This document shows positions 30,246 through 35,111 of a DNA stretch of 64,000 bases, one piece after another. The stretch lies in the NCBI GenBank assembly GCA_903901335.1, contig CAIUQR010000059.1:1-64000 (forward strand). The letters run 5' to 3'. Numbering within the stretch: the stretch's first letter is position 1; the number at the start of each line of letters is the position of its first letter. The notes under the pieces were generated by a model. That model had not been told where the DNA came from. It did no database searches and saw only the letters and a program-made list of their open reading frames with translations. Position numbers and translations under genes: made by a program. The DNA is from an uncultured delta proteobacterium (GTDB lineage: Bacteria > Desulfobacterota > Desulfobulbia > Desulfobulbales > Desulfocapsaceae).

Positions 30246-30276
30246 ATGGGGAGGAGTGACACTCCCCATCAGTTTT
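30246..30276. terminator. terminator between mltD and trxB
   Basis: ATGGGGAG (30246-30253) and CTCCCCAT (30262-30269) form an 8-bp stem with an 8-base loop, followed by AGTTTTT on the plus strand. It lies between convergent genes. Confidence 0.75.
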
Positions 30277-30286
30277 TAAAAGAGGG

Positions 30287-31282
30287 TTATTCCTGCTCTG
30301 CTAGAAATCGTTCCGCTTCAATCGCAGCCATACACCCTGTTCCGGCTGCCGTTACGGCCTGCCGGTAAATCCTATCCTGGACATCACCGCAGGCAAACAC
30401 CCCCGGGATGTTCGTTTTCGGTGTCCCGGGAAGTGTTTGAATATACCCCACCTCGTCCGTATCGATATATTTCTTAAAGATATCTGAATTCGGCTTATGG
30501 CCGATGGCCAGAAAGAAACCCTCAATTTTAATGGTCACCTCTTTTTCCTCCGGGGTCCCTTTCCTATGCCACAGAACGGCACCCTCCACCAGTTTTTCTC
30601 CAATAAGTCCTTTCGTCTGATGTTCCCACAGGATTTCAATTTTTTTAGCCTTTATTACCCTGTCCCGCATCACCTTTGATGCCCGCAATTCATTCCGGCG
30701 GACAATCAGATAGACCTTGTTGCAGAAATTGCTGAGGTAGAGGGACTCTTCGGCAGCGGTATCGCCGCCACCGACTACTGCCACGTCCTTACCGCGAAAG
30801 AAAAAGCCATCACATGTAGCACAGGCGGACACTCCAGCGCCGGCGTATTTTTTTTCATCCGCAAGTCCCAGATATTTGGCGGTGGCACCCGTTGAAATGA
30901 TGAGCGTCTCGGCCAGGATGATCTTTTTATTATCAATTGTGATCTTAAATGGCCGGCAACTGAGATCGGCTGCGGTTGCCTCCCCCCAGCGGAAGTCGGC
31001 ACCAAAACGGCTGGCCTGCTTCTTTAATCCTTCCATAATCTCCGGACCGGTGACCCCGTCCGGATAGCCGGGAAAATTTTCGACCTCCGTGGTGGTCGTC
31101 AACTGCCCCCCCGGTTGCAGACCTTCGTAGAGAACCGGAGCCAGATTGGCACGTGATGCATAGATGGCCGCTGTGCAGCCGGCAGGTCCTGAGCCGATGA
31201 TCAGGCAGCGGACCTTTTCAATATCTGTTATACCGGCATTTTCAGCCGGAGTTGAGGAAATGTCCATTTGTGTTGAATCCAT
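30287..31282 (-). CDS. trxB: thioredoxin reductase
   Basis: A 331-aa FAD/NADPH-dependent disulfide reductase. The FAD motif is IIGSGPAGCTAAIYASRA (about 28-45), the redox pair is CATC (C154, C157), the NADPH motif is VVGGGDTAAEESLYLS (about 169-184), and a final FAD motif is GVFACGDVQD. All agree with low-molecular-weight TrxR. An extension of about 20 residues precedes the usual start (KVRCLIIGSG), and some could be untranslated. It lies 85 bases after the glutaredoxin-FTR gene on the same strand, and both lie downstream of the large membrane protein. So an NADPH-linked and a probable ferredoxin-linked reductase of thioredoxin-like proteins are encoded side by side. Confidence 0.96.
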   Translation of the reverse strand: MDSTQMDISSTPAENAGITDIEKVRCLIIGSGPAGCTAAIYASRANLAPVLYEGLQPGGQLTTTTEVENFPGYPDGVTGPEIMEGLKKQASRFGADFRWGEATAADLSCRPFKITIDNKKIILAETLIISTGATAKYLGLADEKKYAGAGVSACATCDGFFFRGKDVAVVGGGDTAAEESLYLSNFCNKVYLIVRRNELRASKVMRDRVIKAKKIEILWEHQTKGLIGEKLVEGAVLWHRKGTPEEKEVTIKIEGFFLAIGHKPNSDIFKKYIDTDEVGYIQTLPGTPKTNIPGVFACGDVQDRIYRQAVTAAGTGCMAAIEAERFLAEQE

Positions 31283-31367: not shown

Positions 31368-31949
31368 TCAATACAGCTCTGCAGGTCTTCTTTCCGGAAC
31401 AACCACCCGATCCATTATCCCCTTATTCCATTGATCGGAAACATAAAGGCCGCAATAGCAACTGCCGTACTCCCGGACATCCAGCTCCCGATACTGACAA
31501 GGACAGATAATATCCCGATCAGTATCACGACTGCCGGACGCCAGTCTGCAAGGGCAGACCATATATCCATAACGTTCTTTATTGACCAGAAGCCCCCTTA
31601 AAAGCTCAAATGTTTTATCTTCGTTCCTGTTGAAGAAATACCCTTTTTTTTCATTGATCACTTTAAGTTTTTCATAAAGATCGTCTATCTCGGTCCGGAT
31701 TCCAAGGGCTTTCTTGATTTCCTGAGCCTTAGGGCCGACAATCACCTGATCACCAATCACCGTGGTCGGAAAAGAACAGGCAGGATTGACCTTTTTCAAT
31801 TCCTCGATGGTTATTTTGCGTTCATCTCTGGAAAGAATATCAACCTCGATAACTTCATGTTCAAGGGCAAGTTGAACAAGCATTCTTTTCAAAGATTGAC
31901 AATATTCGCACGTTGTCAAGGCATAGAGCCTTATTTTTGGTTGGTTCAT
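31368..31949 (-). CDS. glutaredoxin-ferredoxin:thioredoxin reductase catalytic chain fusion
   Basis: A 193-aa two-domain redox protein. Residues 1-85 are a glutaredoxin-like domain with a CEYC active site (C14, C17) and the conserved cis-Pro segment FPTTVIGD. Residues about 100-185 resemble the catalytic beta chain of ferredoxin:thioredoxin reductase, with three Cys pairs: CPC (132-134), CPC (149-151) and CYC (164-166). In plant and cyanobacterial FTR the last pair is CHC. There the first Cys of pair one, both of pair two and the first of pair three hold the 4Fe-4S cluster, and the remaining two form the redox disulfide. Here Tyr replaces the His. No separate variable FTR chain is adjacent. 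It starts 27 bases after the large membrane protein gene. Confidence 0.92.
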   Translation of the reverse strand: MNQPKIRLYALTTCEYCQSLKRMLVQLALEHEVIEVDILSRDERKITIEELKKVNPACSFPTTVIGDQVIVGPKAQEIKKALGIRTEIDDLYEKLKVINEKKGYFFNRNEDKTFELLRGLLVNKERYGYMVCPCRLASGSRDTDRDIICPCQYRELDVREYGSCYCGLYVSDQWNKGIMDRVVVPERRPAELY

Positions 31950-31976: not shown

Positions 31977-34900
31977 TTATGATTCCGTCTCTTTCCCGGC
32001 AGATTTCGCCTTTTCGTTGACTTCAAAGTCAGAAAAAATTTTCTGGAGTGACTGCAGATAGTCCTCGGATCGTTCAAGATAAAAGGAGAGGGCCTTGGAA
32101 AACTTCTTGCCGAAGACCTCATCAACGAACAACTGGCTGATCTGTCGCTGCTGTTGCAGGATACATTGGGACGCAATTAGGATCCTGCGCTCCTCCTGAT
32201 TCATAGAGGTCATGATGGCCTTCAGAGTACTCTCGGCGCGGGGTTGGTACATCCAGAGATAGAGCAGGTCAAGGGCGTTGATAATGACGACTTTTCCCAT
32301 ATCCGGCTGTTTGTCGCCGATCTGCCTCAAAAACTCCTTATGTGATTCCAACAACTTGACAACATCGGCGTCAGGAAAAAGGACTTCGAGCCTGGCGAAT
32401 ACCTCGAATATCTGGGCTATCTTGGTCGAATAATCCATAAAACGCATTCTGATATTATTCGAGCGATCGGCAAGACCCTCAATGATTGCAGCCACACAGT
32501 CCGAGGCAAGCTTTGAAATAACCGCCGCCCATTTCTGCTGTATCGACTGCACCGCCACCGCACCGGCCACCCCGAGTATCGAGCCGATCACTGCATTGAG
32601 CAGGAAAGCCAGCGGGATGGACAGGACACTGCGAAAAAAATTACCGAAGGCCACCTGCATAGGCAGCCCCCTGAAAATATTATGACCGGATATGTATATT
32701 CCGTTGGCCAGGGCCATCACCGCATAAAGGATGAGCGGACTGGTTCGCGTGGTTATCCCAAACATCCGATCAAGAACCAGCGTCTTTACCACAAGATCCA
32801 AGAGCGGAACAGAAAAGCCGGTGTAAAACAGGGAATCGGCCAGTCTGTTCCAGCTTATATAGTCATTCCAGCGTAAGAGGGGAGATCTCCTTATCCCGCC
32901 CCCTCCCAGCACGGACTGAATAATATTTCTGCCTCCGGTGATGCCAAACCAGATAAATGCTCCGAAATAGGCTAAAAACCACCAATCTTTTGTCAGAGAA
33001 AAGGTGGCAAAGGCAGGGATAAATCCACCCAGGATCTTTAATCCATTTTTCAGATGGGTGTTTAAATACCGTATGGGAATTGTGCGTTTTTTATCCAGGC
33101 TACCTTCCTGTTCAAGAGAAAGGTGACTATTCTCGGAATCTGTCCGGACCCCGCCAAGCAGGGCTACATTGCCGTGGGGTTCCATATGGGCTGAATAGGA
33201 CGGAACCACCCAGTCCTTGTGTTGTTCATACCCGAAGCCCATCCCGGAAGGTGTCTTGATCAGAGCATGAGACAAGACCCGCCTGAGATTCTCGAACTCC
33301 CTGGGACCACTTTTATTATCCCTGGGGACATATTGAACCCTTAAAACGGCTGTCATCCGGACTGGAATTTTAACCCTGGCCTGCAATGGATCGTGATCGA
33401 GAACCCTCTGCGATCGTCGGGGAAGCGTATCTTTGACAACAAGTCCCATGCCGAAACGATTGCGCGAAGTTCCTGTAGAGTCAGTGCCGAATCTGGACAT
33501 CAAAAGAGAGGTGGCATAAAAACCCTGCAGGGAGGGCATATCATGCAGGATCGCCGTAAGCTTTGCGGTTCTTTGTGCAGCCACAGCCGGGTCTGCGTCC
33601 AATTCGGTGTCCTGAATAATTTTCTTGATCACCCTTTTCAGTTTGATTACATTGCCTTGGTTGATTGCAAGCTGCAGTCTGTTGATCTCGGGATTATGGC
33701 CTGCAATCCCGGCGGCATGATCTTTTAGATTAAATATTTCCAGGTGGGTGATCCTGCCTTTGCAATCATAGAGGAGTTCAAGGACATCGGCCGGACTGAG
33801 TCCGGTCAGATTCAAGGTGACACGGAAGCCCGCATTCAAGCCGGCAACCCGCTCCAAAAGTTCCTCGGTGGAAAGTAACAGCATCTCAGGAACATCCGGA
33901 CCGTCCTGCGGCTCGTTGGGATTATAGATACCAGGGTTTTTGGCAGGCTGCAGGAAACTCTCGACAATCGCATCGGGGTCAAAGGTATTCATGACCTCGA
34001 TTGCGTGTCTTATCCGGAGTCGTTCTTCCTCGTCTCCACTCTCGAATTCATTCCGTAACCGGTTCACTACTTCCTGCATTTCCGGATATAAACGGGTATA
34101 AATACACTTTGCCAGATGATGAAGAGACGGCTGCCCTGAGCCGACAAAGGTCAGAAAATCGTCCGGGATAATCGGTGCCAGATTCGTCCCGTAGGCCTCA
34201 TTGATCACAGACCGATGTTTGCGGTTGAATTCATCCAATACCGAAAATACATACCGTTGTTGATATTCAGAGACCTTCCTGCCCTCATCCATGAATTGAC
34301 GGGCCGCACCCCGGCTCAGAAAGTCAAGAAAGGCCTGCCGATCGGCAAATCCTCGCGGCACCCAGAAAATTTTGATATACCGGCCACGGTATCTTGTCAG
34401 GTATTCAATACCGATCCTGACAGAAATCCCCATGATTTCCGAAGATTCTATGAGTTCGGTTGCCACTTCGGTGTTGATGAAATTATAATAGATGACATTC
34501 AGACTGCGAATGCCTTTGATCCAGGCGTCCATGACCATATGGGTCGGCGATTTCCGTCCCTTGGTGTTGGCATCATGGACATGATCATCGAAGGCGATCT
34601 GGTTCCACTCCTCCGGCATTTCGATAAGGTGATGCTTTGCCAGCTGCATCCGGATAAATTGTGGTTTTCCGAAAGTGGCCATACGAAAATCACGGGCAAG
34701 CTGCAGTTGCTTGACATAGTCACCCTTGGAACGGACAAGTTCTTTCATTATTTCAAGCAGGACCCGGGCCGTATTTTTATGCAGGGCTCCTTGCTGTGAA
34801 CTGCAGAAAACCTCGTCACGAAGCAGTCTGAGAGCGTTCTGACGATCGATGGCCATCCCGGCCTCGAGAGATCCGAGGAGATGAATGACTGCATAGGCAA

Positions 34901-35111
34901 TCCGAAGCCCTGTGGAGGCCGTCATCTCCTTAATCCCATGCGGATGCAGATACGTCGTCAGAAGGCTTTCAATATCCTGCTGTGCGACATCTCTGTTCAG
35001 AACATCATTGACGATATTCAACAGGATGTGATCATTTTTATCAAAAAAAAAACGGGATATACTGGGTGTTTGATTCATCTCGACACTAAACCCGAACTTA
35101 TACAGAGACAT
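31977..35111 (-). CDS. 1044-aa unrecognised membrane protein with a PHP-like N-terminal region
   Basis: I do not recognise this protein as a whole. Residues about 60-300 resemble a polymerase-and-histidinol-phosphatase (PHP) fold by eye: DDHVHD (175-180) matches the first HxH metal motif, and a later GIEYLTRYRG matches the strand with the conserved Glu. Yet where active PHP domains have a TDH motif this protein has YYN, so the site looks decayed. A long helical and mixed region follows (about 300-690). A membrane domain has at least four hydrophobic segments (about 693-727, 762-780, 790-808, 826-856), then a coiled-coil-like C-terminus. It is the first gene of an operon with glutaredoxin-FTR and trxB. 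The start could instead be ATG 35078. Confidence 0.75.
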   Translation of the reverse strand: MSLYKFGFSVEMNQTPSISRFFFDKNDHILLNIVNDVLNRDVAQQDIESLLTTYLHPHGIKEMTASTGLRIAYAVIHLLGSLEAGMAIDRQNALRLLRDEVFCSSQQGALHKNTARVLLEIMKELVRSKGDYVKQLQLARDFRMATFGKPQFIRMQLAKHHLIEMPEEWNQIAFDDHVHDANTKGRKSPTHMVMDAWIKGIRSLNVIYYNFINTEVATELIESSEIMGISVRIGIEYLTRYRGRYIKIFWVPRGFADRQAFLDFLSRGAARQFMDEGRKVSEYQQRYVFSVLDEFNRKHRSVINEAYGTNLAPIIPDDFLTFVGSGQPSLHHLAKCIYTRLYPEMQEVVNRLRNEFESGDEEERLRIRHAIEVMNTFDPDAIVESFLQPAKNPGIYNPNEPQDGPDVPEMLLLSTEELLERVAGLNAGFRVTLNLTGLSPADVLELLYDCKGRITHLEIFNLKDHAAGIAGHNPEINRLQLAINQGNVIKLKRVIKKIIQDTELDADPAVAAQRTAKLTAILHDMPSLQGFYATSLLMSRFGTDSTGTSRNRFGMGLVVKDTLPRRSQRVLDHDPLQARVKIPVRMTAVLRVQYVPRDNKSGPREFENLRRVLSHALIKTPSGMGFGYEQHKDWVVPSYSAHMEPHGNVALLGGVRTDSENSHLSLEQEGSLDKKRTIPIRYLNTHLKNGLKILGGFIPAFATFSLTKDWWFLAYFGAFIWFGITGGRNIIQSVLGGGGIRRSPLLRWNDYISWNRLADSLFYTGFSVPLLDLVVKTLVLDRMFGITTRTSPLILYAVMALANGIYISGHNIFRGLPMQVAFGNFFRSVLSIPLAFLLNAVIGSILGVAGAVAVQSIQQKWAAVISKLASDCVAAIIEGLADRSNNIRMRFMDYSTKIAQIFEVFARLEVLFPDADVVKLLESHKEFLRQIGDKQPDMGKVVIINALDLLYLWMYQPRAESTLKAIMTSMNQEERRILIASQCILQQQRQISQLFVDEVFGKKFSKALSFYLERSEDYLQSLQKIFSDFEVNEKAKSAGKETES

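Follow-up and report, generated by a model that had tools for sequence, protein, structure and literature searches.

What is the function of the large protein encoded next to two thiol redox genes in the window, by which we mean the whole stretch of 64,000 nucleotides from an uncultured delta proteobacterium analyzed here? A first-pass annotation had read the protein as a decayed PHP-like pseudoenzyme, a sensor or scaffold coupled to thiol redox control. Its ORF, on the minus strand, was exact in span and length:

31977..35111, minus strand: whole gene, 1044 aa, without a family model in Pfam or NCBIfam

Gene family and distribution

Direct searches of Pfam, NCBIfam and PDB sequences with the window protein gave nothing above noise, and the Pfam PHP model (PF02811) did not match it. 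At least 80 genomes have full-length homologues with 48-82% identity, and nearly all of these genomes are from Desulfobacterota; one is a candidate-phylum MAG (CSSED10-310). In the class sample 58 of 193 genomes have a match (about 30%; one of the 58, G062, is a chance match), and in the phylum sample 45 of 395 (11%). The domain order is constant across all full-length homologues found. A chance ORF was rejected because full-length homologues occur in at least 80 genomes and are under strong purifying selection, and a decayed gene or pseudogene is ruled out by conservation and dN/dS. The family is widespread in sulfate-reducing and related bacteria and undescribed so far: a strongly conserved protein of about 1000 residues, present in about 30% of the sampled class genomes, yet lacking a Pfam or NCBIfam model. 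A literature search found nothing on the window protein or on any membrane PHP pseudoenzyme.

Six genomes of one phylum family (G266, G298, G352, G376, G515 and G550) carry two full-length paralogues each, and in G019 an intact copy is accompanied by what is left of a second one, a decayed C-terminal piece (L244:695-1759). Three weak matches had raised the possibility of a stand-alone C-terminal domain; one is this remnant and the other two (L242 and L243) are unrelated proteins. Searches for plasmid or phage carriage of the family gave no match, nor did PADLOC for defense systems.

Domain organization and PHP fold

An AlphaFold2 model of the window protein was built on 79 sequences (pLDDT 81, pTM 0.79; residues 1-15 are of low confidence). 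Together with conservation, hydrophobicity and profile comparisons it gives the following layout:

34608..35111, minus strand: N-terminal helical domain, residues 1-168, 7-8 helices (AlphaFold and conservation)
33432..34604, minus strand: PHP domain of the RNase AM / TrpH / Cv1693 type, residues 170-560 (structure and profile)
33852..34340, minus strand: insertion inside the PHP barrel, residues 258-420 (AlphaFold, profile and comparison with PMC9410882)
33087..33431, minus strand: linker region, residues 561-675, fast-evolving and of lower confidence (AlphaFold and dN/dS)
32472..33086, minus strand: probable membrane domain, residues 676-880, long helices (conservation, hydrophobicity and AlphaFold)
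31980..32471, minus strand: C-terminal helical region, residues 881-1044 (structure model)

Residues 1-168 have no family match. The PHP region is well defined in structure, as its model reached a Foldseek E of 5e-6 and VIA Z scores of 10-17 across 25 PHP entries, while chains of other folds scored 6.3 or less. Structural alignments extend past residue 560, to about residue 642; over residues 170-642 the closest match is BAD_1165 (Z 17.1, rmsd 2.6, 251 aligned), and Z is 15.8 to Cv1693 and 15.6 to RNase AM. The model has the distorted (beta/alpha)7 barrel of the PHP superfamily. Homology was also detected by profile comparison (hhalign) with 15 TrpH-type proteins of relatives, at E 3.2e-4 for the window subfamily and 5.5e-11 for a second subfamily described below, against 0.06-0.9 for reversed and shuffled controls. 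The window protein therefore contains a PHP barrel that belongs to the lineage of RNase AM and 3',5'-nucleoside bisphosphate phosphatase and carries the insertion typical of that group. This upholds the PHP-like N-terminal region of the first-pass annotation, which had suggested a fold check. What it had left as an unrecognized central region is, from the structure and profile matches to PHP enzymes, mostly the barrel's insertion and second half.

The remodeled metal site

The motifs first picked out by eye are all present in the translated protein: DDHVHD at residues 175-180, YYN at 208-210 and GIEYLTRYRG at 234-243. The profile alignment places these and the remaining PHP motifs as follows:

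34539..34589, minus strand: residues 175-191 DDHVHDANTKGRKSPTH, counterpart of IDLHxHS.YSDG..TP (profile alignment, homologue counts)
34482..34490, minus strand: residues 208-210 YYN, counterpart of TDH (profile alignment, homologue counts)
34404..34412, minus strand: residues 234-236 GIE, counterpart of G(L/I)E (profile alignment, homologue counts)
34110..34136, minus strand: residues 326-334 GQPSLHHLA, counterpart of TrpH GQ(T)GRPHIA (profile alignment)
33804..33818, minus strand: residues 432-436 TLNLT, counterpart of (V)LAHP (profile, weakly aligned in the window subfamily)
33474..33488, minus strand: residues 542-546 GTDST, probable counterpart of GSDFH (weak profile, structural range agrees)

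The same genome encodes an intact TrpH-type protein (L197), and since the two coexist the window gene is not a TrpH replacement. The nine ligands of L197 (H9, H11, D16, H41, E66, H77, H192, D249 and H251) map in the window protein to H177, H179, K184, N210, E236, position 247, L435, D544 and T546. The last two or three assignments are less certain, resting on a weak profile alignment (E 0.13 for GTDST/GSDFH) with which the range of the structural alignment is consistent; a separate profile alignment of the second half of the barrel was not strong enough to settle the last two ligand positions. The protein thus departs from the three-metal ligand set H,H,D,H,E,H,H,D,H at about five of nine positions, including all three of the third (gamma) site. 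In E. coli RNase AM the third metal is held by Asp20, His45 and His257, and the D20A mutant is inactive (PMC9410882); the window protein has K, N and T at these positions.

The replacements are fixed or nearly so. Among 79 homologues, K184 takes the place of the metal-binding Asp in all, and R186, K187, H191, H179 and Y209 are likewise found in 79 of 79. N210 replaces the His ligand in 78 and T546 does so in 75, while position 247 has Q, R or K instead of His and the (V)LAHP histidine is probably lost, with L435 in the weak alignment. The replacement of TDH by YYN, proposed by the first-pass annotation, is thus borne out, but its term "decayed" is not, as K184, N210 and T546 are so conserved and the motif dN/dS is 0.03-0.04 in within-genus pairs, indicating purifying selection. 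The retained ligands H177, E236 and D544 (75, 74 and 65 of 79) are less fixed than the replacements K184 and N210. Ten residues are invariant even across distant members: D175, H179, D180, K184, R186, K187, H191, Y209, E458 and N461. The metal site is a conserved one, pseudoenzyme-like or repurposed, and is a clear example of a PHP enzyme domain in which other fixed residues have taken the place of metal ligands.

A purely structural role, in which the PHP domain would lend rigid support to the membrane protein or to a partner, has a precedent in the metal-free PHP of E. coli Pol III, for which a role in stability was proposed (PMC3666897), and the unchanging domain order would agree with it. 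However, an invariant cluster of pocket residues would be superfluous in a scaffold, and in all four pairs compared the motif region changes more slowly than the PHP domain taken whole; we consider this role improbable. A pocket that still binds something fits these observations better in our opinion. K184 at the essential Asp position, together with R186, K187 and H191, may form a cationic pocket for a phosphorylated ligand; a nucleotide with a 5'-phosphate, the end of an RNA and a lipid head group are examples. The barrel would no longer cleave phosphate esters by the three-metal mechanism.

A second subfamily with more of the ancestral site

Proteins of about 950 aa, 26-35% identical to the window family, form a second subfamily (in G348, G640, G602, G590, G627, G582 and G677) that is differently degenerate, retaining H, H, mostly E, D, E and H at ligand positions. 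It matches NF041577, the NCBIfam model of 3',5'-nucleoside bisphosphate phosphatase, which the window protein does not match, weakly and below cut-off (E 1.8e-4, 20.7 bits against the 400-bit equivalog cut-off), and matches NF041661 (phosphoribosyl 1,2-cyclic phosphate diphosphodiesterase) far below cut-off. Likely counterparts of all three arginines of the RNase AM insertion that bind the 5'-phosphate (R107, R110 and R141) are kept in this subfamily. The window subfamily does not have this set: R278 is a likely counterpart (60 of 79), and S281 and L330 stand at the other two positions; the Arg of GQ(T)GRPHIA is retained in subfamily 2 and lost in the window subfamily. Such an intermediate, with more of the ancestral site, makes a loss of catalysis or a change of chemistry directly testable.

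The additional possible ligands and the phosphate-binding arginines of subfamily 2 speak for the main rival to a binding-only pocket, a repurposed enzyme that would stay catalytic with a remodeled site, using a single metal or no metal at all, on a membrane-linked phosphoester such as a lipid head group or a glycerophosphodiester. The ten residues from D175 to N461 that are invariant across distant members do look enzyme-like, and an invariant pocket would fit new catalytic chemistry and pure binding equally. Against an enzyme, the metal ligands that were kept are less conserved than the replacements, and the third-metal site that RNase AM cannot do without is gone. On balance a repurposed enzyme seems rather unlikely, although less so than a scaffold.

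The probable membrane domain

The first-pass annotation had predicted a membrane domain of four or more helices. The model has five or six long helices there, in agreement, but hydrophobicity is only moderate, with Kyte-Doolittle windows above 1.4 in three or four segments and a peak of 2.2. Residues 676-880 are therefore a probable membrane domain, an assignment resting on this moderate hydrophobicity. Modeled alone, residues 676-1044 again give long helices (pLDDT 85.8). Several polar residues of the domain are invariant (R728, N729, Q732, R756, N803, H810, N811, R814 and R827), which suggest a role beyond anchoring. A convincing match of the C-terminal domain to solved PDB folds was absent from Foldseek (best E 0.5) and VIA (best Z 6.1, in the noise range for helical models), and viral structures gave no match at E 0.001; the domain may be a new fold.

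Gene neighborhood

The redox genes lie downstream of the window gene, on the same strand:

31368..31949, minus strand: glutaredoxin-FtrB fusion, 193 aa (PF00462 2.6e-7, PF02943 1.7e-19)
30287..31282, minus strand: trxB, thioredoxin-disulfide reductase, 331 aa (TIGR01292, 368.5 bits against a cut-off of 343.45)
30246..30269, no strand: perfect hairpin resembling a terminator, between trxB and a convergent LysM/transglycosylase gene

The gaps of 27 and 85 bases between the three genes, the fusion and the downstream trxB were all described correctly at first pass. This tight co-directional spacing favors a thiol redox sensor or scaffold acting with Grx-FtrB and TrxB, and FtrB adjoins the gene in each of the three genomes of the genus, two of which also show trxB. 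In the class, FtrB and the family gene also co-occur (30 genomes carry both; odds ratio 5.2, p 2.5e-6, without correction for kinship). However, FtrB adjoins the family gene in only 2 of these 30 sampled genomes and at no locus among about 80 outside the genus, so that a family-wide redox operon was rejected, and the invariant columns contain no Cys. The conservation of the FtrB/trxB neighborhood in relatives, which the first-pass annotation had suggested checking, was not found, and because this neighborhood is confined to the genus, redox coupling is unsupported as the function of the family. We regard it as very improbable. The sensor or scaffold idea was reasonable as regards a PHP domain with lost ligands and a likely membrane domain; its redox part did not hold.

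In many relatives (L212-L241) a separate glutaredoxin ORF precedes FtrB and carries one in-frame TGA, which may be a selenocysteine codon (compare NF041072 and NF041212); the window gene for glutaredoxin-FtrB (31368-31949) is the fused version, with CEYC.

Clustering of flanking ORFs in 84 loci revealed no common neighbor of any kind. The best leads, weak and post hoc, are genes for glycerophosphodiester phosphodiesterase, GDPD (4 of 84 loci, 5 with L171), and PHO4 (4). GDPD directly adjoins the family gene in L131:5416-6192, L171:4328-5101, L011, L021 and L024, in two different arrangements: upstream in two genomes of subfamily 2 and downstream in three Syntrophales. These five loci would suit a repurposed enzyme, but they are 5 of about 90, singled out post hoc, and GDPD has a background of about 1.6 copies per genome; the adjacency is a lead rather than evidence. 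PHO4-type phosphate transporter genes lie near the gene in L047, L026, L034 and L135, upstream and on the same strand in the first three. Four related loci (L016:4334-5353, L002, L007 and L017) share a conserved upstream cluster of a ketopantoate reductase-like ORF, a universal stress protein and a weakly kinase-like ORF.

Proposed function

We favor, at a probability of roughly 0.4, a membrane-anchored PHP protein that binds a phosphorylated ligand without hydrolysis and signals to its membrane domain. Ligand binding would be relayed from the PHP domain to the membrane domain, a step that is conjecture, and the adjacent redox genes, a neighborhood at genus level, need not belong to the mechanism. 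For the family as a whole we tentatively propose that an RNase AM-type PHP of Desulfobacterota has become a receptor for a phosphorylated ligand, or a new catalyst acting on one, and is coupled to a membrane domain whose fold is unsolved. The conversion may, with the same reserve, have come about through the fixed Lys/Arg/His cluster in place of metal ligands. If true, this would be a previously undescribed type of membrane signaling or lipid-phosphate protein.

Comparison with known systems

RNase AM (YciV/TrpH/Rnm, of E. coli and Vibrio) and Cv1693, a 3',5'-nucleotide bisphosphate phosphatase (PDB 7ug9, 9etk and 2yb1), share with the window family the PHP fold with an insertion domain, the motif order, and the HxH, GIE and GQxxxxHxA motifs, which are detectable by profile and clearest in subfamily 2. 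The insertion is longer in the window protein, which has K, N and T at the third-metal ligands, has probably lost the HP histidine, and in whose subfamily the GQxGRPH Arg is lost. It also adds an N-terminal helical domain and a probable C-terminal membrane domain, being three to four times longer. BAD_1165 (PDB 3e0f/3o0f), a Bifidobacterium PHP phosphoesterase and the closest solved fold, is a stand-alone protein of 286 aa, while the window protein retains only about four of nine ligand positions. The PHP domain of E. coli DNA polymerase III alpha resembles the window protein in its conserved fold and positively charged replacements; five of its nine ligands are absent and it is kept as a structural element (PMC3666897). 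Arginine is the commonest replacement at six of nine ligand positions in degenerate PHP domains (PMC3666897). The Pol III domain belongs to a different PHP lineage, with Z only 11-13, and is part of a polymerase, whereas the PHP domain described here is part of a probable membrane protein.
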